Made by a program: the position numbers and the translations under genes. The notes beneath the pieces are model-generated. The model had not been told where the DNA came from. It saw only the letters and a list, made by a program, of their open reading frames with translations, and ran no database searches. Below, piece by piece: positions 49,381 through 61,433 of a stretch of DNA of 64,000 nt; position 1 is the first letter of the stretch, and every line of letters begins with the position of its first letter. The stretch comes from Glycomyces albidus (GTDB lineage: Bacteria > Actinomycetota > Actinomycetes > Mycobacteriales > Micromonosporaceae): NCBI RefSeq assembly GCF_009451885.1, contig NZ_WIAO01000002.1, positions 124,001-188,000 of the forward strand, read 5' to 3'.

Positions 49381-49800
49381 TCAGTTCGCTTCGGGGGCGT
49401 TTCCGGTGGCGCCAGCATCGCGCAGCGACTTCCCCAGCGACCCGGTGAGGATGCGGGGATACCGGCGCCACCACCACCAGTCGGGCTCACGGAGCTTATG
49501 AAAGTGGGAGAGCGCTGCTCCGTCGTCGGCGATGGTCGCGGCTGTGAAGCGGTTGTCCAGGGCCATCAGCCTCGGTGTCCAATCCTGGACTATGAAGTCA
49601 TGGAGCAGCCCGGACGCCTCCCGGAGCCAGTTTCGGCTGTAGAGGTCGTTGGTGTAGTTGTAAATGTCGCCGTCGTAGCCTTGTTCGACCTCGCCCACCA
49701 GCCGCTCCCACTTGCCGACCATCTCAGCGATGGTGAACGCCTTCCGCCAGCCGTCCCGATACAGCCGCTCGCTCACCTCAGCCTCGCTATATGTACCCAT
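49381..49800 (-). CDS. Hypothetical protein
   Basis: A 139-residue protein rich in aromatic residues (GYDGDIYNYTNDLYSRNWL, EPDWWWWRRYP). It looks folded and helical and has lower GC than its flanks, but no family is recognised. ATG 49800 is used; a GTG lies one codon upstream. It sits between repeat DNA and a decayed transposase, an accessory location. Confidence 0.6.
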   Translation of the reverse strand: MGTYSEAEVSERLYRDGWRKAFTIAEMVGKWERLVGEVEQGYDGDIYNYTNDLYSRNWLREASGLLHDFIVQDWTPRLMALDNRFTAATIADDGAALSHFHKLREPDWWWWRRYPRILTGSLGKSLRDAGATGNAPEAN

Positions 49801-49933
49801 CACGACAGATTCTCGCAGACATCCTGCGGATCAAACGGGTAGCTTGCGTGGCGAGCGTGCGACCGCTCGCTCATCTCGAGCCTCCCGCATCGGAAGCCGT
49901 TGGAGCGCAACAGATCATGATGTTGTGTCAGGG

Positions 49934-50480
49934 GTGATCACGGCGAAGGATGAGCTCATGGTGCCCCTGTTCAGCGGGCTGAGTCCTCGCCGGTTCGCCA
50001 AGCTGGTCCGCCAGCTTCGCCGCGAAGGCGCCGATCCTGTGCTCCGGGGTCGTCCTTGGAAACTTACCTTCGAGGATCGGGTGCTGCTGGTCGCAGCCTA
50101 CTGGCGTACCAACCTCACGATGCGCCAGATCGCGGCGTTGTTCGGCACCTCGAAGTCGGCCGCTGACCGGATCATCGGCGACCTCGCGCCGAAACTGGCG
50201 CTCCGCCCAAGGCAGCGGTATGCGCCGGAGACGGTGCTGATCGTCGACGGCACACTGGTTCCTACCAGGGACCAGGCGTGGCGGCGAAGTCGAAGAACTA
50301 CCGGTACTCGACCAACCATCAGGTGGTTATTCGCGCCGACACGCAGCTCGTGGTCGTGGTCGGGACACCGCTGCCGGGCAACCGCAACGACTCGGTCGCC
50401 GTCGCCGCTTCCGGCGTTGACAACGCCACCCGTACCGCGACAGTCATCGCCGACGGCGGCTACCAAGGCACCCGAGCCGG
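49934..50480 (+). pseudogene. Decayed IS5-family-like transposase
   Basis: The frame starting GTG 49934 reads a typical transposase N-terminus (VPLFSGLSPRRFAKLV, LTFEDRVLLVAAYWRTNLTMRQIAALFG, VDGTLVPTRD). Near 50270 the coding frame shifts, and homology continues in another frame (AKSKNYRYSTNHQVVIRADTQL, GNRNDSVAVA, VIADGGYQGT). After 50475 the expected C-terminal DDE part is missing and repeat DNA begins. A frameshift plus 3' truncation make it inactive. Terminal inverted repeats were not found. Confidence 0.8.
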
Positions 50481-50503
50481 ATCGGGTCCGAGCGGATCGG
50501 ACG

Positions 50504-51120
50504 GAAGCGGACCCGGCCACGGCAACCTGCCTCCGTGGCGTGCCGCCCAACCCGGCATCGGTGCCCGTCCGGACCTGGCATCTGATCGCGACCCGAGCCC
50601 CGGAGCGCGCCCTAAACCATGCTCTCACCCGCTTGTCGCTGCCTGATCGAACACCGACCCCGACCAGACCCGAGCGCGACCGGGCACCGGTTCACAGGCC
50701 ATTGCTGGGGGTTCGACGCCGGCCGAAGCGGACCCGGCCACGGCGACACGCCTTTGGTACGTGCGGCTCAACTGGGCATCGGTGCCTTGACGGGCCTCGC
50801 TCGGATTCGACTCGAGCCCCGGAGCGCACCCCCAACCACCCGCCCATCTCGTTGCCGCCCGATCGAACACCGGCCCTGACTCGACCAGGGGATGACCACT
50901 TTCCGGTTCGTAGGTCTTGGGTCATTGCTGGGGTTTCGAGGCCGGGCGAAGTGGGCCCGGCCGCGGCGACACGTCTTCGACACCTGCGACTCGACTCGTC
51001 ATCGGTGCCTTGCGGACCTGGCGCGGAGCGCTAGCCGAGCCCCGGAGCGAACCCGCAACCACGCGCCCACCCGGTCGTCGTCGCCCGATTGAACACCGAT
51101 TCCGCCGCGGCCATTGCTTG
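50504..51120. repeat. Three ~222-bp tandem repeats
   Basis: Units start at 50504, 50725 and 50948 (GAAGCGGACCCGGCCACGGC or variant). Shared landmarks include GCATCGGTGCC, GAGCCCCGGAGCG, CCCGATCGAACACCG and CATTGCTGGGG. Divergence between units is moderate; the third is truncated. They directly abut the transposase remnant. The frames through them are Arg/Pro-rich and not accepted as genes. Confidence 0.8.
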
Positions 51121-51231
51121 ACCAGGTTCCTGAAGGATTGCGATCGGTTGTCGGTGCCCAAGTTCCGCAAGACTTGGAACCAGTACCTCAGTCCGATGAG
51201 GACTTCCGTGCCTGCGTTGGCGACCGGTGGG

Positions 51232-52038
51232 TCACAGGAGCATCCACAGTTGTTCGGCATCCCCGGAGTCGCAGTTCTGCAAGGCGACCGCGTCGCCCGA
51301 CTCGGACGACGAGCTCTTGAGGACGGCCAGGCACAAGGTGTCGCTGGCGGCCGTGCGGAGCTGGTAGGCGCTGCCGGTCGGGAGGAGTTCCCAGGTCTGG
51401 GCGTCGAGGCCGTCGCAGCCGTCGAACCCGACGAGCATGCCGTCTTCGGTGCCGCCGTTGTCGGCGGTCATGCAGGGCGTCCAGTCGTCGAAGGCCATTT
51501 CGACGAAGTACGCGCCGCCGTCCTTGACCCAGGTCAGTTCCGGCTCGGTGCTGCCGCAGTCGCCCAGGACCAGCACGCTGCGGTCGCCGCCGGGCTCCTC
51601 GCCCCAGGTCATGCACAGGCCGCTGGCCTCCTGCCGCGCCCGATAGACGCCGGTCCCGGGCAGTGCGGTCGCGTTCTCGGCCGTGTCCGATGCGGACGCC
51701 GCAGTGGTCGTCTCCCCGGTCGGCTCCGCTTCGACGGACGGCGACCCGCTCTCCTGTCCCGTTCCGGCCGTTTCGCTCGGGCTGCCCGTGGGGCCCGAAC
51801 CGGTCGCCGAACCGGGGTCGAATTCGGCGTACGCGACCGAATCGGCGTCGACCCCGGTCGTGTTGTCCGACATGGCCTTCCAGATGACGGCGGCGGTGAG
51901 GGCGAGGGCCACGGCCGCTGCGGAGGCGAGCGACTTGCGGGTGAGCACCTGCCGCCGGTCCGGGACCGGGAACGCGTCGAGCGGGCCGTCGGCGTCCCGC
52001 GCCGGCTCGGAGTTCTCGGTCTCCACGGGGTCAGTCAC
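51232..52038 (-). CDS. Membrane-anchored ricin-type lectin protein
   Basis: A 268-residue protein. A short cytoplasmic head and one helix (about 38-55) lead to a Ser/Thr/Gly-rich linker and a ricin B (beta-trefoil) domain at about 128-268, with the repeating Q-x-W-type endings TWVKDG, AQTWELL and AEQLWMLL and paired cysteines (GLCMTW, LGDCGS, PCMTAD, FDGCDG). Probably binds carbohydrate outside the cell. It ends 24 bp before a gene-free repeat region. Confidence 0.82.
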   Translation of the reverse strand: MTDPVETENSEPARDADGPLDAFPVPDRRQVLTRKSLASAAAVALALTAAVIWKAMSDNTTGVDADSVAYAEFDPGSATGSGPTGSPSETAGTGQESGSPSVEAEPTGETTTAASASDTAENATALPGTGVYRARQEASGLCMTWGEEPGGDRSVLVLGDCGSTEPELTWVKDGGAYFVEMAFDDWTPCMTADNGGTEDGMLVGFDGCDGLDAQTWELLPTGSAYQLRTAASDTLCLAVLKSSSSESGDAVALQNCDSGDAEQLWMLL

Positions 52039-52099
52039 TGGGGGCGTCCTCGGGGTGGATTCGGTCGCGATGAGCGGGTTGATCCTACCCGGCGGGCCG

Positions 52100-52573
52100 T
52101 CAGCGCCCGGTGATGGCGGGCCCGTCCGGCGGCAGGGGGCGCTTACCGGGTTCGGTCGGGAGGGCCTGGATGAGGCGGGCGGCGTGGTCGCGGTTGGTGC
52201 CGACGAGGCTGACGCGGTGGCGGCTCCCGTCGGGGAGCTCGCGGATGATGCGCCTGCCGTCGAAGTAGACCCGCTCGCCCTGCTCGGCGCCGACGCCCTC
52301 CTTGCCGGGACCGATCGCCATGAACACGGTCAGGGCGCCGGTCGCCGGGTCGTACAGGTACCTGGGGCGGAACAGGGCCCCGAGCCCGGCGCCGAGGAGC
52401 GCCAGGCCGGTGAGGCCGATCGGGACCAGGACCGGCAGGAACGGCGTGAAGACCGAGACGGCCGCGCACGCCGTGAGGACGACGCCCATGCCGGTCATGA
52501 GCGCGGACGCCTTGCGGGAGTAGCCGACCTTGATCGGGCGGGGGCGGAGGGGATGAGGGGCGTCGGACGGCAT
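52100..52573 (-). CDS. Small membrane protein, paralogue B of the 43228 gene
   Basis: A 157-residue protein with two hydrophobic helices (about 24-66) and a cytoplasmic domain containing RYLYDPATGALTVFMAIG and GERVYFDGRRIIRELPDG. Its DPAT...GER-YF signature and layout match the gene at 43228, so the two are paralogues 9 kb apart. No function is known. ATG 52573; it follows no strong ribosome site. Confidence 0.7.
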   Translation of the reverse strand: MPSDAPHPLRPRPIKVGYSRKASALMTGMGVVLTACAAVSVFTPFLPVLVPIGLTGLALLGAGLGALFRPRYLYDPATGALTVFMAIGPGKEGVGAEQGERVYFDGRRIIRELPDGSRHRVSLVGTNRDHAARLIQALPTEPGKRPLPPDGPAITGR

Positions 52574-52638
52574 CGCGTCTCCTGCGGGCGAGGGGCGGGC
52601 GGGCCTTCAGGATAGCGAGCGGAGGCTCGGCGGCCGGG

Positions 52639-54216
52639 TCAGTAGTTCCGCCACTCGGACTGCACGAGTTCGAGGATGACCGGGTGCATGAGCGTGGACG
52701 GCTGCATGTCCATCTCGGCCCGGTCGGGCGGGAAGACCTGGGCGGCTTCCAGGAGCTCGGGGGTCAAGGACCGGAACGGGCCGGCCGCGGGGTCCAGGCC
52801 CAGTTCCGGGACGGTCCCGTCGGCCTGGACGAGGTGGTAGCCCCAGTCGCCGAAGCTCGGCACCGACACCCAGTACGGGGCCGCGGCGTACCCGGCGTCA
52901 TCGAGGGTGGCCTTGATGGTCCAGAAGGTCTTCGGCGCGAAGTACGGGGACCCGCTCTGGACGACCATGCGGCCCGCGTCGGTGAGGCGGTCGCCGGCGA
53001 GCGCGTAGAACTCGGTCGAGTAGAGCTTCGCGGTCTCGGTCGCGTCCGGGTCGGGCATGTCGACGATGATCGCGTCCCACCGGCCGGTCTGCGTGCGCAG
53101 CCAGGTGAAGGCGTCCTCGTTGACGACCGTGACGCGCGGGTCGTCGAGGGCGTCCCCGTTGAGCGCCACCAGGTCCTCGAAGTCCCGGGCGAGGTCGGTG
53201 ACGGCGCCGTCGAGGTCGACCAGGGTCACCGACTCGACGTCCGGGTACTTCAGGATCTCGCGGACCGCGAGCCCGTCGCCGCCGCCGAGGACGAGGACGT
53301 TCGCGCGCGGGCCGTCCATCGCCGGGTGGACCAGCGCCTCGTGGTACCGGTATTCGTCCACCGAGGAGAACTGGAGGTCGCCGTTGAGGTACAGGCGCAG
53401 ATCCTGCTCGCCGAACGGCGACAGCGACTCGGTCATCACGATCTGCTGGTACCGCGTGTCCTCGGTGTAGACGATCGGCGCCGAGTAGAGCGCCTGGCGC
53501 GCATCCGTCTCGAACTTGTCCGTGTACAGGAACGCCGCCACCAGCAGCACCGCCGTGCCCGCCGCGACCAGCGCCAGGAGCTGCTTCGCCATCGTCGACA
53601 GGTCGCCGCGGAACAGCAGGAACACCAGGAGCACGCCCGCGACCGCGTTCAGCGCCCCCACCAGGAGCGCCCCCTGGATCTGCCCGAACACCGGCAGCAG
53701 GATGAACGGGAACGCGAGCCCGCCGATGAGCCCGCCCAGGTAGTCCGCGGCGTTCAAGTCCGCGACCGCCGCGCCCGCCGCCTGCTCGCGGATGCGCTGC
53801 AGCAGCTCCATCAGCAGCGGGATCTCCGCCCCGATCAGCAGCCCGATCGCGGCCGCGACCACCACCAGCGGCAGCGAGTACAGGTCCGTCCACGCGAACG
53901 CCGCGTACAGCAGCATCACGCTGAAACCGCCCAGGAGCGCCAGCGCCAGCTCGACCGCGGCGAACGCCAGCGCCGGCCAGCGCCGCAGCGGCTTCGCCGC
54001 CAGAGCGCCCAGGCCCATCGCGCACACCATCACCGCCAGCACGATCGACGCCTGCTGCGCGGTGTTCCCCACCAGGTAGGAGCCGAGCGTGATGAGCGCC
54101 AGTTCGTACACGAGCCCGCACGCCGAGACCGCGAACGCGGTCGCGAGCAGGCCGAAGCGCGCCAGGCGGACCCGGCGCGCACTCAACGTCGTCTGCGGGG
54201 CGGTCGCAGCGGTCAC
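52639..54216 (-). CDS. Membrane-embedded spermidine synthase-like aminopropyltransferase
   Basis: A 525-residue protein. The N-terminal ~215 residues contain about seven helices; the C-terminal ~290 residues are a spermidine-synthase/methyltransferase domain with LVLGGGDGLAVREILKY, VDLDGAVTDLAR and IIVDMPDPDATETAKLYS. Soluble homologues transfer aminopropyl groups from decarboxylated AdoMet; whether this membrane form does is untested. It is the last gene of a five-gene operon with DUF350, DUF4247, DUF2617 and DUF4178. Confidence 0.85.
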   Translation of the reverse strand: MTAATAPQTTLSARRVRLARFGLLATAFAVSACGLVYELALITLGSYLVGNTAQQASIVLAVMVCAMGLGALAAKPLRRWPALAFAAVELALALLGGFSVMLLYAAFAWTDLYSLPLVVVAAAIGLLIGAEIPLLMELLQRIREQAAGAAVADLNAADYLGGLIGGLAFPFILLPVFGQIQGALLVGALNAVAGVLLVFLLFRGDLSTMAKQLLALVAAGTAVLLVAAFLYTDKFETDARQALYSAPIVYTEDTRYQQIVMTESLSPFGEQDLRLYLNGDLQFSSVDEYRYHEALVHPAMDGPRANVLVLGGGDGLAVREILKYPDVESVTLVDLDGAVTDLARDFEDLVALNGDALDDPRVTVVNEDAFTWLRTQTGRWDAIIVDMPDPDATETAKLYSTEFYALAGDRLTDAGRMVVQSGSPYFAPKTFWTIKATLDDAGYAAAPYWVSVPSFGDWGYHLVQADGTVPELGLDPAAGPFRSLTPELLEAAQVFPPDRAEMDMQPSTLMHPVILELVQSEWRNY

Positions 54217-54238
54217 GACCGCGGTCGCCTCGTGCTCG

Positions 54239-54676
54239 TCACGACAGCGCCATCGCGATCACGCCGCCGAGCGCGACGTGCATCGCCGCGTTCACCCACA
54301 CCGCGGGCTGCAGCTCGTCGTCGGTCAGGATGTCGCCGAGCTTCCCAGGGGTGAGCAGGTCGAGGATGAGGAACGCGATCGCCATGGCGCCCAAGCCGAT
54401 CACGCCGTACACGAACGTCGAGACGACGCCCCGGACCACGCCGCCCTCGGACGCCCAGATCGCGCCGACCACGATCAGGCCGACACCGAGGACGTTCGAG
54501 GTCAGCAGGACCGCGGCGTTCTTGTTCCGCTCGGTCCAGATCAGCTCGCCGAGCTTCCCGGGGGTGAGCCAGTCGGTGACCAGGTAGCCGAGCACCATGA
54601 GGACGATCCCCACGACGCTGTACGCGACGGCGCCGAGCAAGGGGTCGAGGACGTCGCGGCTGAGCTCTTCGAACAT
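54239..54676 (-). CDS. DUF350 membrane protein
   Basis: A 145-residue protein with four helices arranged as two repeats, each ending in LTPGKLG (DWLTPGKLGELIW and DLLTPGKLGDILTD). This internal duplication defines DUF350 (YjfL-like). Function unknown; homologues cluster with polyamine-synthase-like and DUF4178 genes in distant bacteria. It is 22 bp from the synthase gene. Confidence 0.85.
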   Translation of the reverse strand: MFEELSRDVLDPLLGAVAYSVVGIVLMVLGYLVTDWLTPGKLGELIWTERNKNAAVLLTSNVLGVGLIVVGAIWASEGGVVRGVVSTFVYGVIGLGAMAIAFLILDLLTPGKLGDILTDDELQPAVWVNAAMHVALGGVIAMALS

Positions 54677-54721
54677 GTCAGGTGGCCGTGCCTTTCAGAA
54701 TGCGCTTCATGACAACTGGGC

Positions 54722-55195
54722 TTACTTGCCGGAGCCGGGGCCGCCGCCCCGGAACGGCGACGGAGGCGAGGACGACCAGCCCCAGCCGCCGAGGATGAAG
54801 ACCGACGAGTAGTGGTTGTAACCGGAGCGGTAGTCGTGCACCAGGATCTTCGAACCGCCCTGGTACGGCGACACCGCGACGATGTGCTTCGTGTACTGCA
54901 GGTAGTAGACGCCGCCCGAGGAGCGCTCGTCGACCGCCTCGGCGTCGTCGTCGATCTGGTCGGCCACGGTCGCGGGCGACAGGCTCGACGTGTAGGCCCT
55001 GCCGCCGCCCTCGTCCAGGTTCGCCGCCCGGGTGTAGTGGTCGCGGATCGTCCCGGTGGGGTTCGAGAAGTTCGAGTTCATCAAGAACACCCCGCCGCAG
55101 CACAGCGCCAGCACGACGATGATGGCCGTCCAGTGCTTCCAGTTCATGCCGCGCGACGCGGGGGTCGGAGGGGGCTGCTGCTGTCCGTTGGTCAT
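54722..55195 (-). CDS. DUF4247 protein
   Basis: A 157-residue protein: short Pro/Gln-rich head, one helix (about 20-40), and an extracellular domain with DEGGGRAYTSSLSPATVADQI and GVYYLQYTKHIVAVSPY, matching DUF4247, and a Gly/Ser-rich tail (GWGWSSSPPSPFRGGG). ATG 55195; next gene in the operon is DUF350, 45 bp away. Function unknown. Confidence 0.8.
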   Translation of the reverse strand: MTNGQQQPPPTPASRGMNWKHWTAIIVVLALCCGGVFLMNSNFSNPTGTIRDHYTRAANLDEGGGRAYTSSLSPATVADQIDDDAEAVDERSSGGVYYLQYTKHIVAVSPYQGGSKILVHDYRSGYNHYSSVFILGGWGWSSSPPSPFRGGGPGSGK

Positions 55196-55228
55196 TCGGC
55201 GTTCCTCGGTCGTCTCTCGGGGGTTCGG

Positions 55229-55741
55229 TCAGCTTACGGCTTCGACGCGACTGCTGGTGGTCACGACCTCGCCGTACTGCGGGTACGTGTGGACCGTGCG
55301 CCACGACAGCGGCTCGGTCCCGGTCACCTCCAGCGCCGTGAGCGCGTCCGGGTCGCCCCCGAACAGGCCCACGAGCAGGTCCGGTTCCGCAGTGCGCTGC
55401 ACGGCCCGGTCGCGCAGGGCCCGCACGCGGCCGCGCAGCTCGGGGACCGTCAGCGTCTCGACGGTGCACTCGTACCGGTGCCGCCACGCGCCGACGCGCT
55501 GGCTGAAGGACTCCGGCAGGTCGGGGGCGACGTCGGAGCGGTACGCGAGGGTCTCGGCGATGAACCCGTCAGGGGTCGCCACGACGGCCTGGTGGCTGGC
55601 GCCCAGCAGCCGCAGGGACAGCCGCAGGGGCCCGGCGTCGCGGTCCATGCGGTCCAGGACCGGCATCGGCGGCGCGTCGGGCCGGAAGGTGAGCGAGGCG
55701 GCCGAGACGTCGGCGAACGGCACCTCGATATGCGCTATCAG
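55229..55741 (-). CDS. DUF2617 protein, probably starting at CTG
   Basis: A 170-residue protein with VPFADVSAASLTF near the start and the DUF2617 pattern through GFIAETLAYRS and ALTALEVTGTEPLSWRTVHTYPQYGEVV. A GTG at 55723 would clip the first strand of the family. CTG 55741 restores it (LIAHIEVPF) and has GGAG 7 bases upstream, while the GTG has none. Cytoplasmic; function unknown. Confidence 0.78.
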   Translation of the reverse strand: MIAHIEVPFADVSAASLTFRPDAPPMPVLDRMDRDAGPLRLSLRLLGASHQAVVATPDGFIAETLAYRSDVAPDLPESFSQRVGAWRHRYECTVETLTVPELRGRVRALRDRAVQRTAEPDLLVGLFGGDPDALTALEVTGTEPLSWRTVHTYPQYGEVVTTSSRVEAVS

Positions 55742-55784
55742 CGTGTGCTCCGTGGGGGGATCGTCGTGCGGGCGGGCGGAGCGG

Positions 55785-56390
55785 TCAGGCTTCGCTCTGG
55801 TGGTAGATCGTGATCTGGTTCCGGTCGAGCGTGAGGCCCTTCGCGAGCTCCCACTTGCCCTCCTCGCCGAACCGCTCGAACGAGAGCTTCTGGCCGTCGG
55901 GGCCGGCGTAGTCGTGGTACTTGACCGAACCGGTCGGGGCGAGCCCGGTGGTGGCCTCGGACACGTACCGCGCGGTGCCCTTCTCGTCGGACCGGTACGA
56001 GACGCCCTCGTAGCTGAGCTCGCGGGGGCCCGGCTGCAGGTCGGAGTCGGTGATCTCCTCCCACATGACCACCTCGAGGTCGGGGTCGGCCTCGACCGAC
56101 AGCCAGCGCTTCACGCCGGTGCCGGTGTCCAGGAAGTGCTCGGACCACTGGTAGTCGCCCTCGGACAGCCGCAGGCTGCCGCGGACGGCCAGGGTCTTGC
56201 CGTACAGCTCGACCAGGTCGGCGGCCTTGAGGCGGCGGGGGTCGCCGCGGAGGACGTCGGTGTCGGCGTCGGCGAACGGGTCCACCGGCCCGGGGGCCGG
56301 GACCGATTCGTCCTTGCGGGTGTTGTTCTTGCGCCACAGCCACCAGCCGAGGACGGCCAGGGCGATGAGGAGGAGGACGACCCAGATCAT
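55785..56390 (-). CDS. DUF4178 protein with N-terminal membrane anchor
   Basis: A 201-residue protein with one helix at 2-21 and a DUF4178 beta-sheet domain (about 50-195: LRLSEGDYQWSEHFLDTGTGVKRWLSVE, VMWEEI, YEGVSYR, FERFGEEGKWELAKG). ATG 56390 is chosen directly before the hydrophobic helix; a GTG-started longer frame adds a hydrophilic tail. It opens the five-gene minus-strand operon. Confidence 0.8.
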   Translation of the reverse strand: MIWVVLLLIALAVLGWWLWRKNNTRKDESVPAPGPVDPFADADTDVLRGDPRRLKAADLVELYGKTLAVRGSLRLSEGDYQWSEHFLDTGTGVKRWLSVEADPDLEVVMWEEITDSDLQPGPRELSYEGVSYRSDEKGTARYVSEATTGLAPTGSVKYHDYAGPDGQKLSFERFGEEGKWELAKGLTLDRNQITIYHQSEA

Positions 56391-56567
56391 GGCGGTGCCT
56401 TCGCGTTTCGGGGGGTGCTCGGTGACGGGATGGTTTCCTGCTCTCACTCTACCGTCGCTTCGGCAACATCGGTGTCACCCGTGCGCCATGTGGGCAACCT
56501 AGGATCTAGCCTTGAGGCGGCGCACAACGATGTGGGCCGAACGTGATTCGGACTGGAGTATCGAGAC

Positions 56568-59500
56568 GTGTTGGCGTTCATCGGAGACGAAGAGTTCCGC
56601 GAAACCCTCCCCGACCGGGAGGAACTGCTGACCGAGGCGGCCCGACTGGCCGGATCCGACGAATCCCTGGCGCGGCTGGTGGAGCTGTACTGGAGCCTCG
56701 TGTCGGACGACGACCTTGTCGGCCGCAGCGCCCAGCAGCTCCTGGAGACCACCGCCCACCACCGCCGCATGGCCGAGACGCGCTCCCCGGGGCAGGTCTG
56801 CCTGGAGATCGACTGCCCCGACGACGCCGAGGGCCCCGACGCGGCCTCCTCGACCCGCGTCGACCTCGTCTGCGACGACTCCCCGTTCCTGGTCGACTCG
56901 CTCACCGGCCTGTTCAACCGGCACGGGATCGACATCGCCGTGTTCGTCCACCCCATCGTCCCGGTCCGCCGCGACGCGGACGGGAACCTCGAAGAGGCGC
57001 CCGCCGACGACGGCCGCCCCGAATCCTGGATGCACATCGAGGTCCAGCGGCTCTCCGACCCCGACGAGATCGCCAAACTCGAGACCGAGATCGGCGTCGT
57101 CCTCGCCGACGTCGCCGCCTGCGTCGCCGACTGGCAGGCCATGCGCGCCAAAGCGCTCGAGATCGCCGACGGACTCGACGCCACCGCCACCGGCGCCGAA
57201 GGCACCACGCCGCTGCCCGTCCCGCCCAAGGACATCGACGACACCGTCGAACTCCTGCGCTGGCTCGCGGACGACAAGTTCACGTTCCTGGGGTTCCGGC
57301 AGTACAAGCTCACCGGCGAAGGCGAGGACCAGGCGCTCTCGCCGCTCGCCGAGACCGGCCTGGGCCTGCTGCGCAAGGCGCCCGCCGCGCCCCGGCCGCT
57401 GACCACGTTCAACGCCGACGCCCGCTCCCAGATCGGCACCAAGCGGCTCCTGGTCATCACCAAGTCGAACGCGCGCTCCACCGTCCACCGGACGTCCTTC
57501 ATGGACTACATCGGGGTGAAGACCTTCGACACGAACGGCGAGCCCGACGGCGAGCTGCGCTTCCTCGGCCTGTTCACCTCCGCCGCGTACCTCTCCAGCG
57601 TCACCGAGCTGCCCGTCGTCAAGCGCAAGGTCGAGGAGGTCCTCGAACGCTCGGGCGTGACCCTCTCCTCCCACTCCGGGAAGGACCTCGTCACCGCCCT
57701 CGAGACGTACCCGCGCGACGAGCTGTTCCAGGCCCGCACCGACGACCTGTACTCGACCGCGATGGGCGTGCTGCGCCTCGCCGGGCGCCGCCGCCTGCGC
57801 CTGTTCGCCCGCCGCGACGTCTACGGCCGCTTCTACTCATGCCTGATCTACCTGCCCCGGGACCGGTACAACACCGAGAACCGGATCAAGATCGAGCAGA
57901 TCCTGCGCCGCCGCCTCCACGGCAAGGCCGTCGACTACGACGCCCGCGTCACCGAGTCCGTGCTCGCCCGCCTCCACTTCGTCGTCCGCATCGACCCGTT
58001 CGCCGAGCACCCGCCCGTCGACGTCGAGTCGATCCAGGCCGAACTCGCCGACGCCACCCGCTCCTGGGACGCCGACCTCGCCCTCCAGCTCGACCACCAC
58101 GTCGGCGAAGGCCAGGCCCGCACCCTCTACAAGACCTACGCGGCCGCGTACCCGCCCGCGTACAAGGCCGAGCACACGCCCATCGACGCCGCCAAGGACA
58201 TCGCGAAGCTCGAACTGCTCCGCGACGACGGCGACATGGAGCTCCAGCTGTTCCGCCGCGGCGGCGACGACGCGAACGTGCACTTCAAGCTCTACTCGTT
58301 CAACCAGCCCGTCGGCCTCTCCGAGGCCCTCCCGGTGCTCCGCGACCTCGGCGTCCGCGTCGCCGAGGAGCGCCCGTACCACATCGAGCGCCCCGACGGC
58401 ACCATCCACCTGCACGACTTCGGGCTCGAACTGCCCGGCCGGGCCGCCGAATCGATCCCGAAGCTGCGCATCCGCTTCGAGAACGCCTTCCGCGCCGCCT
58501 GGGCCGGCGAGGCCGAGTCGGACCGGCTCAACGAGCTCGTGATCGCCGCCGGCCTCACCTGGCGGCAGGTCGTCGTCCTCCGCGCCCTCGCGAAGTACCT
58601 GCGCCAGTGCGGGTTCGTGTTCTCCCAGGAGTTCATCGCCGCGACCCTCGGCGCCTACCCCGAGATCGCCGCGAACCTGGTGCGGCTCTTCGAAGCCCGC
58701 TTCGACCCGCGCGTGGGAGCCGACCGCGACGCCGCGGTCGCCCGCATCGACGACGCGCTCGCGGAGGGCCTCGCCGCCGTCCCGAGCCTCGACGCCGACC
58801 GGATCCTGCGGGCGTTCCTGACGCTCATCCGCTCGACCCTGCGGACCTCCTACTTCCAGCGCGGCGCCGCGGGCCGGCCCAAGGAGTACGTGGCGTTCAA
58901 GTTCGACGCCCGCTCGATCGACTTCCTGCCCCGCCCGCGCCCGCTGTTCGAGGTGTTCGTGTACTCCCCGAACTTCGAGGGCGTCCACATGCGGTACGGC
59001 AAGGTCGCGCGCGGCGGCCTGCGCTGGTCGGACCGGCGCGAGGACTTCCGCACCGAGATCCTCGGCCTGGTCAAGGCCCAGGAGGTCAAGAACACCGTCA
59101 TCACGCCCGTGGGCGCGAAAGGCGGGTTCGTGCTCAAACGCGACGGGTTCGCCGACCGGGCCGCGTTCCAGGCCGAAGGCGTCGCCCGGTACCGCGAGTT
59201 CATCTCGGCGCTGCTCGACATCACCGACAACCGCGACGCCGACAACACCGTCGTCCCGCCGCCGAACGTGGTCCGCCACGACGGCGACGACCCGTACCTC
59301 GTCGTCGCCGCCGACAAGGGCACCGCGACGTTCTCCGACATCGCCAACGCCGTCGCCGCCGAGTACGGGTTCTGGCTCGGCGACGCGTTCGCCTCCGGCG
59401 GCTCGGTCGGCTACGACCACAAGAAGATGGGCATCACCGCGCGCGGCGCCTGGGAGTCCGTCAAGCGCCACTTCCGCGCCGAGGGCCTGGACACGCAGAC

Positions 59501-61433
59501 GCAGGACTTCACCGTCGTCGGCATCGGCGACATGTCCGGCGACGTGTTCGGCAACGGGATGCTGCTGTCCGAGCACATCCGGCTCGTGGCCGCGTTCAAC
59601 CACATGCACATCTTCATCGACCCGGACCCCGACGCGGCCGTCTCGTACGCCGAGCGGCGCCGCCTGTTCGACCTGCCGCGCTCGACCTGGGCCGACTACG
59701 ACCCGGCGCTCATCTCAACCGGCGGCGGCGTGTGGGAACGCTCGGCGAAGTCCATCCCCGTCTCCGACGAGGTCCGGGCCGCGCTCGGCATCGACGCCGA
59801 CGTCAAGGACCTCACCCCGCCCGAACTCATCCGGGCGATCCTCACCGCGCCGGTCGACCTGCTGTGGAACGGCGGCATCGGCACGTACGTGAAGTCCGCC
59901 GCGCAGACCGACGCCGACGCGGGCGACAAGTCCAACGACGCGGTCCGCGTCAACGGCGAGGACCTGCGCTGCCGCGTCGTCGGCGAAGGCGGCAACCTCG
60001 GGTTCACGCAGCTCGGGCGCATCGAGTACGCCCAGTCCGGCGGGCCCGAGGGGCGCGGCGGGCGCATGAACACCGACTTCATCGACAACTCCGCGGGCGT
60101 GGACACCTCCGACCACGAGGTCAACATCAAGATCCTGCTGCGCTCGGCGACGCTCACCGGCCGGTGCGACCCCGCCTCGCGCGACAAGCTGTTCATGGAG
60201 ATGTCCGACGCCGTCGCGGACGCGGTCCTGGCCGACAACTACGGCCAGAACATGGCCCTGGCCAACGCGATCCGCCTCAACCGGCGCCTGCTTCCCGTCC
60301 ACATCAGACTGATGAAGCACCTGGAGAAGACCGTCGGCCTCGACCGCGAGATCGAGGGCCTCCCCAGCGACAAGCAGCTCAAGGAGCGTGCCGCCGCCGG
60401 GACCGGGCTCACCGAGCCCGAGCTCTCGGTGCTCCTGTCGTACGTGAAGATCTGGGCCAAGCGCGCCGTCCTCGACTCCGACCTGCCCGACGAGGAGTGG
60501 ACCGCGCCGGTGCTGCGCGAGTACTTCCCGGCGCCGCTGCGCGAGCCGTACGCCGACCTCATGGCCGAGCACCCGCTGCGCCGCGAGATCGTCACCACCG
60601 CGGTCGTCGGCGAGGCCGTCAACCGCGGCGGCACCACGTTCTTCTTCCGCATCGCCGACGAGACCGGCGCCGACGTCGTCGACGTCATCCGCGCGTACGT
60701 GATCATCCGCGACGCCTTCGGCCTGCCGGCCCTGTGGCGGCGCATCGAGGCCCTCGACAACCAGGTGCCGCAGGAGGCGCAGGTCGCGGCCATGCTCGTG
60801 ATCCGGCGGCTCCTCGACCGGGGCGTGCGCTGGCTCGTGCAGCACCGCCGGGGGCACCTCGACGTGGCCGCCGAGATCGGGCGGCTCCGGCCGGGCCTGG
60901 CGGTGCTCCAGCCGATGCTGCCGGTGCTGCTCATCGACTCCGAGGCGGTCGGGTTCGAGCGGTTCGTGGACCAGCTCGAGGACCAGGGCATGCCCGCCGA
61001 GCTCGCACGCGAGGCTTCGGCGCCGATCTTCGGGTTCGGGCTCGTCGACGTCGTGGAGTGCGCGCGGCTGCTCGAGACCGACCTGGAGACGACCGCGAAG
61101 GTGTACTACGGGATCGCCGCCCGCGTGCACCTCGACGAGATCCTCAACCAGATCTCGGCCCTGCCGCGCACGAACCGGTGGCAGACGCTCGCGCGGTCGG
61201 CGCTGCGGTACGACCTGTACGGCGCGATGGCCGGCCTGACGGCGAGCGTGCTCGAGGCGAAGCCCGGCACCGACCCGGCCGAGGCCGTCGACTCGTGGGC
61301 CGAGCGCAACGCCGCCGAAATCGCGCGGATCCACGAGGCGACCGAGGAGGCCGGGCGCTCCGACGAGAAGCTCGCGGTCCTGTCGGTCTCGCTCAGGCAG
61401 ATCCGCGGATTGGTGGACACCGACGGGGAGTGA
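56568..61433 (+). CDS. gdhB: NAD-specific glutamate dehydrogenase, large 180-kDa type
   Basis: A 1621-residue enzyme of the L_180 class, deaminating glutamate to 2-oxoglutarate with NAD+. The N-terminal ~700 residues are ACT-like regulatory segments. The catalytic core contains KVARGGLRWSDRREDFRTEI (about 810-830) and EVKNTVITPVGAKGGFVLK, then the nucleotide-binding part VVGIGDMSGDVFGNGM (about 984-1000) and RVVGEGGNLGFTQLGR. GTG 56568 follows GGAG. It is transcribed alone, divergent from the DUF operon. Confidence 0.93.
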   Translation: MLAFIGDEEFRETLPDREELLTEAARLAGSDESLARLVELYWSLVSDDDLVGRSAQQLLETTAHHRRMAETRSPGQVCLEIDCPDDAEGPDAASSTRVDLVCDDSPFLVDSLTGLFNRHGIDIAVFVHPIVPVRRDADGNLEEAPADDGRPESWMHIEVQRLSDPDEIAKLETEIGVVLADVAACVADWQAMRAKALEIADGLDATATGAEGTTPLPVPPKDIDDTVELLRWLADDKFTFLGFRQYKLTGEGEDQALSPLAETGLGLLRKAPAAPRPLTTFNADARSQIGTKRLLVITKSNARSTVHRTSFMDYIGVKTFDTNGEPDGELRFLGLFTSAAYLSSVTELPVVKRKVEEVLERSGVTLSSHSGKDLVTALETYPRDELFQARTDDLYSTAMGVLRLAGRRRLRLFARRDVYGRFYSCLIYLPRDRYNTENRIKIEQILRRRLHGKAVDYDARVTESVLARLHFVVRIDPFAEHPPVDVESIQAELADATRSWDADLALQLDHHVGEGQARTLYKTYAAAYPPAYKAEHTPIDAAKDIAKLELLRDDGDMELQLFRRGGDDANVHFKLYSFNQPVGLSEALPVLRDLGVRVAEERPYHIERPDGTIHLHDFGLELPGRAAESIPKLRIRFENAFRAAWAGEAESDRLNELVIAAGLTWRQVVVLRALAKYLRQCGFVFSQEFIAATLGAYPEIAANLVRLFEARFDPRVGADRDAAVARIDDALAEGLAAVPSLDADRILRAFLTLIRSTLRTSYFQRGAAGRPKEYVAFKFDARSIDFLPRPRPLFEVFVYSPNFEGVHMRYGKVARGGLRWSDRREDFRTEILGLVKAQEVKNTVITPVGAKGGFVLKRDGFADRAAFQAEGVARYREFISALLDITDNRDADNTVVPPPNVVRHDGDDPYLVVAADKGTATFSDIANAVAAEYGFWLGDAFASGGSVGYDHKKMGITARGAWESVKRHFRAEGLDTQTQDFTVVGIGDMSGDVFGNGMLLSEHIRLVAAFNHMHIFIDPDPDAAVSYAERRRLFDLPRSTWADYDPALISTGGGVWERSAKSIPVSDEVRAALGIDADVKDLTPPELIRAILTAPVDLLWNGGIGTYVKSAAQTDADAGDKSNDAVRVNGEDLRCRVVGEGGNLGFTQLGRIEYAQSGGPEGRGGRMNTDFIDNSAGVDTSDHEVNIKILLRSATLTGRCDPASRDKLFMEMSDAVADAVLADNYGQNMALANAIRLNRRLLPVHIRLMKHLEKTVGLDREIEGLPSDKQLKERAAAGTGLTEPELSVLLSYVKIWAKRAVLDSDLPDEEWTAPVLREYFPAPLREPYADLMAEHPLRREIVTTAVVGEAVNRGGTTFFFRIADETGADVVDVIRAYVIIRDAFGLPALWRRIEALDNQVPQEAQVAAMLVIRRLLDRGVRWLVQHRRGHLDVAAEIGRLRPGLAVLQPMLPVLLIDSEAVGFERFVDQLEDQGMPAELAREASAPIFGFGLVDVVECARLLETDLETTAKVYYGIAARVHLDEILNQISALPRTNRWQTLARSALRYDLYGAMAGLTASVLEAKPGTDPAEAVDSWAERNAAEIARIHEATEEAGRSDEKLAVLSVSLRQIRGLVDTDGE

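Follow-up and report, generated by a model that had tools for sequence, protein, structure and literature searches.

A conserved membrane aminopropyltransferase cluster in Glycomyces albidus with DUF2617 as a candidate S-adenosylmethionine decarboxylase

Within a 64,000-nt stretch of the Glycomyces albidus genome (the window, whose positions serve as coordinates throughout), we analysed an operon of five minus-strand open reading frames running from 56390 to 52639. In this order they encode proteins of the families DUF4178, DUF2617, DUF4247 and DUF350 and, last, a membrane aminopropyltransferase, for which gene and protein are both called SPD here. The five genes are as follows, with transmembrane (TM)-like segments counted by hydropathy.

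55785..56390, minus strand: DUF4178 protein with one N-terminal TM-like segment (PF13785, E 6.3e-35)
55229..55741, minus strand: DUF2617 protein with no TM-like segment, proposed pyruvoyl-type S-adenosylmethionine (AdoMet) decarboxylase; start CTG 55741 or GTG 55723
54722..55195, minus strand: DUF4247 protein with one N-terminal TM-like segment (PF14042, E 6.6e-24)
54239..54676, minus strand: DUF350 (YjfL-type) membrane protein with four TM-like segments (PF03994, E 5.7e-28)
52639..54216, minus strand: SPD, seven TM-like segments followed by a spermidine-synthase domain with the catalytic residues kept (NF002956, 658.5 bits)

The genes are separated by gaps of 43, 33, 45 and 22 nt in operon order, DUF2617 is the soluble member, and its true start is probably one of the two codons given. 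Together with DUF2617 (5e-38) and Spermine_synth (1e-35), all Pfam matches lie far above cut-off. Two terminator-like sites occur in 51000-57000, where 1.5 are expected by chance, and both fall within coding sequence; no sigma-70-like promoter was found in the same region and no promoter-like match between the operon genes. A preliminary description of this DNA had therefore read the locus correctly as five closely spaced minus-strand genes of these families with no internal terminator, four of them membrane-anchored and one with seven helices. Its statement that no member has an agreed function does not hold for SPD, which carries the NCBI function name polyamine aminopropyltransferase (NCBIfam NF002956, also PRK03612).

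Judged by its sequence, SPD is a clear member of that family, scoring 658.5 bits against a curated cut-off of 472 and combining a TM N-half with the catalytic Asp and the GGGDG motif. Among 45 actinobacterial and six other sequences, Asp287-Glu288 and Tyr291 are each conserved in 44/45 and 6/6, the Asp of VDxPDP likewise in 44/45 and 6/6, and Gln420 in 42/45 and 6/6, and the GGGDG glycines are kept in nearly all rows. The loop that reads PTYP in the soluble enzyme of Bacillus subtilis is, in contrast, PSFG[DE]WGF in most SPD sequences, and the acceptor may therefore be something other than putrescine.

Gene neighbourhoods were compared in a class sample (148 genomes; six families searched, results combined by script), from which matches below the SPD cut-off, a second DUF2617 piece in one genome (G192) and nine DUF350 rows (four above cut-off) from genomes without SPD were dropped before counting. 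SPD above cut-off was present at 36 places in 34 genomes, and at 33 of the 36 a DUF2617 gene lay within 8 kb on the same strand, so the cluster is conserved in the very comparison whose failure the preliminary description had named as grounds for abandoning its proposal. The full five-gene order was found at 11 places, while five lacked DUF4247, three DUF4178, one DUF350, three DUF2617, and one lacked DUF4247 with DUF350 in front. At the remaining 12, all in genus g6 (genomes of 6.1-9.9 Mb) and at the same locus, DUF2617 and SPD stood alone. From these gene orders DUF2617 and SPD emerge as the core of the cluster, the accessory genes being absent from the locus in that one genus. An order sample of 219 genomes shares some members with the class sample; here 57 of 59 DUF2617 genes had SPD on their own strand no more than 2 kb away. 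SPD was present in all of the best 80 of 573 confirmed named DUF2617 loci, and the named loci nearest to the window's DUF2617 are those of Glycomyces dulcitolivorans (94%) and G. artemisiae (92%). The clustering is beyond chance. A phylum-level sample of 197 genomes, searched for DUF2617, yielded it in 15.

An aminopropyltransferase requires decarboxylated AdoMet (dcAdoMet), which is the product of AdoMet decarboxylase (AdoMetDC; in bacteria PF02675, SpeD). PF02675 has no match in the window's own genome. Across the order sample, SPD was detected in 72 genomes, DUF2617 in 59 and PF02675 in 52, and the 72 SPD genomes divide into 56 with DUF2617 only, 15 with PF02675 only, one with both and none with neither (Fisher p 1.4e-14, the genomes being related). 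Of the 147 genomes lacking SPD, 36 carried PF02675. The class sample gave the same picture, with 29 of 34 SPD genomes carrying DUF2617 only, three PF02675 only, two both and none neither, and the three SPD genomes without DUF2617 fall among just six of 148 genomes that have PF02675. Furthermore, 10 of 14 reference genomes have SPD-type matches (E up to 0.001; only Corynebacterium glutamicum above cut-off), eight of these ten have PF02675, and the other two, C. glutamicum and Haloferax volcanii, are exactly the two of the 14 that have DUF2617.

The exchange is also visible locus by locus. Of 16 fetched PF02675-type loci, 15 keep DUF4178, DUF4247, DUF350 and SPD and have no DUF2617; the sixteenth (G332, f90) ends at a contig end, so that a DUF2617 gene could have been lost in the assembly gap. 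Where SPD is listed before DUF350 (L117 and L125), this is because the long stop-to-stop SPD frame overlaps. In Novosphingobium and Alteromonas, neither of them actinobacterial, annotated clusters hold DUF4178, DUF350 and SPD together with an annotated speD, which bears out the earlier remark that DUF350, DUF4178 and spermidine-synthase homologues recur together in other phyla. SpeD lies within 7 kb of SPD at five of six fetched non-actinobacterial loci (once on the opposite strand); none was found near SPD at the fetched Tritonibacter locus, and none of the six has DUF2617.

Residue conservation in DUF2617 was assessed on 60 non-redundant proteins, 71 of 131 having been removed as redundant. 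Asp10, Ala47-Ser48-His49, Glu62, Thr134, Trp146, His150, Tyr152 and Pro153 are invariant in 60/60. Position 66, in the hairpin that would match the one with the catalytic cysteine of AdoMetDC (human 82, T. maritima 83), carries Cys in 48 of the proteins; the remaining 12, from the window, Glycomyces and near relatives, have Tyr there. The codons of chief interest are the following.

55595..55597, minus strand: Ser48, proposed pyruvoyl-forming serine of the invariant A-S-H (60/60 homologues), directly before the point where the alignment to the human AdoMetDC alpha chain starts
55541..55543, minus strand: Tyr66, Cys in 48 of the 60 aligned homologues
55337..55339, minus strand: Thr134, invariant (60/60), proposed counterpart of human Ser229
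55289..55291, minus strand: His150 in W-x-T-x-H-x-Y-P (60/60), proposed counterpart of human His243 and Thermotoga maritima His68 by profile alignment to AdoMetDC

We take human Ser229, Cys82 and His243 to be functional residues of AdoMetDC. The human motifs VLSE-S68-SM ... LKT-C82 and GYS229 ... YWTI-H243-ITPE (from sequences with S68A- and H243A-type chains, residues other than 68 being numbered by counting) can be set beside LLGA-S48-HQ ... ETxA-C66 and LT134 ... WRTV-H150-TYPQ of DUF2617; the serine-cysteine spacing is 14 in the human enzyme and in 4/60 DUF2617 proteins, and 18 in 48. In T. maritima AdoMetDC the corresponding residues are S63, H68 and C83 (PMC10407285). Profile comparison with bacterial AdoMetDC aligned the His motif with E 1.3e-4 in one run and a score of 31.7 and probability of 42% in another, the probability ranging from 42 to 54% across runs, and a looser run lengthened the alignment over the C-half of DUF2617. 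The score of 31.7 exceeds every control: 200 column shuffles gave a mean of 12.0 and a maximum of 19.9, reversed profiles did not go beyond 16.0, and the scores of eight unrelated profile pairs ranged from 10.7 to 20.7. A search of solved-structure sequences with the DUF2617 profile returned just a chance-level match (E 0.73).

Predicted DUF2617 models have the alpha/beta sandwich fold of AdoMetDC, and for two of them eukaryotic AdoMetDC is the top structural match; spermine synthase (3c6k) is a further match, and no class 1 AdoMetDC entry is among the structural matches listed. The model alignments to the human alpha chain (3ep7) begin at residue 49 versus human 69, and at 50 versus 69 for the second model (ranges only). 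On these models Ser48 would sit at the processing site, and the sequence motifs suggest His150 as the processing or catalytic histidine. Like eukaryotic (class 2) AdoMetDC, DUF2617 is a single-chain protein whose N-half holds the serine and whose C-half holds the presumed catalytic His, but it has ~165 instead of ~330 residues, no detectable sequence match, Ala-Ser in place of Glu-Ser and, in this genus, Tyr in place of Cys. With bacterial/archaeal class 1b SpeD (PF02675) it shares the H-T-[YW]-P-x-x-G motif, over which the weak profile match runs, and apparently the operon role in which it replaces SpeD; however, serine and histidine are five apart in SpeD (T. maritima 63 and 68) and ~100 apart in DUF2617, and there is no Pfam match.

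Taken together, we consider the operon to be a membrane-bound aminopropylation system with its own donor maker, in which DUF2617 would be a divergent, compact AdoMet decarboxylase, and we put the probability of this at roughly 80%. The DUF2617 proenzyme would cut itself between Ala47 and Ser48, Ser48 would become the pyruvoyl cofactor, and AdoMet would be decarboxylated with the aid of His150 and the residue at position 66. SPD would then move the aminopropyl group from dcAdoMet to an acceptor at the membrane, and DUF350, DUF4178 and DUF4247 may be accessory membrane or envelope parts that tune or host the system. DUF2617, treated as filler in the preliminary description, is the strongest clue at the locus. 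Tentatively, DUF2617 could even stand beside classes 1 and 2 as an AdoMet decarboxylase class of its own, made up of single-chain prokaryotic enzymes of ~165 residues with a eukaryote-like arrangement in Actinomycetota and haloarchaea. Such an enzyme would provide the donor for membrane aminopropylation of a target that is not a free diamine (for example a lipid or envelope molecule), and it may have a common origin with eukaryotic AdoMetDC.

Several observations limit the case for DUF2617 as an AdoMet decarboxylase. On an SPD tree (51 rows) the DUF2617 distribution is explained by just four changes, and the three independent pairs on supported branches that differ in DUF2617, with SpeD opposite in 2.8/3 on average, are too small a number to be significant (sign test p 0.25). 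Both genes are found in one genome of the order sample (G338), where the PF02675 match is weak (43.8 bits, cut-off 25) and has an internal stop, and in two of the class sample (G023 and G182), whose PF02675 protein has, by eye, Tyr at the catalytic Cys. An open DUF2617 gene in G482 (L156) and a DUF2617 fragment beside DUF4178 in G503 (L157) occur with no SPD above cut-off, possibly through decay of the system. A real weakness of the window's own DUF2617 copy is Tyr66 where the catalytic Cys would be expected; in this lineage the proton donor may be a different one, the reaction may be slow, or the substrate may not be AdoMet. Finally, PF02675 matched none of 36 DUF2617 proteins (E up to 10), no class 2 AdoMetDC family was among their Pfam matches, and the DUF2617 profile gave no significant match to a single human AdoMetDC sequence, the best local alignment, itself not significant, setting His150 on His243.

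The Tyr66 of the Glycomyces clade would also fit a pyruvoyl-bearing DUF2617 of AdoMetDC fold with a different substrate, such as arginine, ornithine or a similar amino acid, which would supply the acceptor amine and not the donor. AdoMetDC relatives have repeatedly turned into arginine or ornithine decarboxylases (PMC10407285). We regard this as unlikely, because DUF2617 is absent exactly where an AdoMetDC-family gene is present (15/15 SPD genomes without DUF2617), a pattern that fits replacement of AdoMetDC and not diamine supply, because the rest of the operon is unchanged in AdoMetDC-type loci, and because 56/72 SPD genomes would otherwise have no PF02675-type source of dcAdoMet. Somewhat less probable still is a non-catalytic AdoMetDC-fold protein that binds AdoMet or dcAdoMet and regulates the transferase or presents substrate to it. 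The loss of the Cys in Glycomyces would agree with such a role, as would two precedents, the trypanosome prozyme, a dead AdoMetDC relative with another role (PMC6221367), and the AdoMetDC-type N-domain of human spermine synthase (PMC11999265), whose structure 3c6k is among the matches; yet Ser48, His49, Thr134 and His150 are more strictly conserved than binding would need, and a PF02675 enzyme that DUF2617 could regulate is absent from 29/34 SPD genomes of the class sample. It is very improbable that the complementarity arose simply because DUF2617 and AdoMetDC sort with different families, DUF2617 resembling AdoMetDC in its sandwich fold without being related to it. In favour of this, 11 of the order sample's 15 AdoMetDC-type genomes belong to one family (f95) and just three independent pairs are on supported branches. 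Against it, the switch is seen repeatedly (in f95, within genus g4 of f2, in f74 and in the contig-cut G332), C. glutamicum and H. volcanii contrast alike with eight other reference genomes, and the fold, motif and profile evidence is independent of phylogeny.

If DUF2617 is an AdoMet decarboxylase, it can be assigned a reaction, the polyamine pathways predicted for these groups need revision, a new branch is added to the small family of pyruvoyl enzymes, and donor supply would be explained in many actinobacteria and perhaps in salt-loving archaea. A gap in PF02675 alongside an SPD-type gene is seen in C. glutamicum as well as in the 56/72 and 29/34 SPD genomes above. For H. volcanii, a 2016 study described two 7-TM spermidine-synthase homologues, found no AdoMet decarboxylase in this or any sequenced halophile and asked where the donor comes from (PMC5178350). 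As the reference-genome control showed DUF2617 in H. volcanii, a testable gene candidate can now be named for this gap.

The cluster as such was known. One of its DUF2617 proteins, CCP45394.1, is presumably from Mycobacterium tuberculosis. In PMC11237479, PspA-linked spermidine-synthase/YjfL operons and a PspA-less variant with DUF4247 (CCP45395.1) and DUF2617 (CCP45394.1) are described, DUF2617 is predicted to be a beta-sandwich enzyme with two conserved histidines, and the pair is said to replace a CesT/Tir-PspA dyad. Those operons share DUF4178, DUF350 and the 7-TM spermidine-synthase-like enzyme with the window; PspA had no match among the eight window proteins scanned (51232-61433, to which the scan was limited), and DUF2617 is there part of a dyad-replacing pair, whereas here it would stand in for AdoMetDC. 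The same article ties such clusters to polyamines and membrane stress. Of the membrane polyamine system proposed in the preliminary description, the conserved cluster around a membrane aminopropyltransferase with its catalytic residues kept stands, and its general polyamine and envelope-stress idea is already known; the sensor or scaffold roles that it suggested for DUF4178 and DUF4247 are conjectural. No link of DUF2617 to AdoMet decarboxylase was found among the papers listed (most subscription literature lay outside the search), and its assignment as the missing AdoMet decarboxylase is well supported and directly testable.

Some loci show variations of their own. The PF02675 protein of G182 and G023 (L023 and L024) reads A-S-H...HTWPEFS...LLAYG, with Ala preceding the serine and Tyr where the catalytic Cys belongs, so that it deviates at the same two points as Glycomyces DUF2617, and by sequence it is possibly an AdoMetDC relative acting on another substrate; the frame just downstream resembles, by its motif, what we take to be a phosphopantetheinyl transferase. 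In L020 (G272) and L021 (G317), AdoMet decarboxylase and a soluble spermidine-synthase domain share one reading frame, like the fusions described for Pelagibacter (PMC11107197). A search for long DUF2617-containing proteins (the 8000 candidates with the most shared words) returned a single protein, P0185, which also holds DUF4178 and DUF4247; since its sequence resembles frame-shifted operon read-through, no fusion was counted.

Plasmid searches gave no match to DUF2617 and SPD-like matches in 27 records. Among the seven fetched, a Halobaculum plasmid has a soluble speE adjoining an annotated AdoMetDC, and in an Ensifer plasmid the match covers the second half of SPD only. An Alteromonas plasmid (L106:6887-13545) carries a run with SPD, speD, a toxic-anion-resistance protein, DUF4178 and DUF350.

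Around the operon, a large NAD-glutamate dehydrogenase lies upstream in the opposite direction. Downstream, 65 nt past SPD, an unnamed protein with two TM-like segments is encoded at 52100-52573, followed at 51232-52038 by a ricin-type beta-trefoil lectin domain protein with one TM-like segment. Both genes were left outside the system: among 75 named loci with room after SPD, none has a relative of the lectin gene there and five, all Glycomyces, have one of 52100-52573. Further away, at 49712-50646, the translation shows broken transposase-like reading frames.

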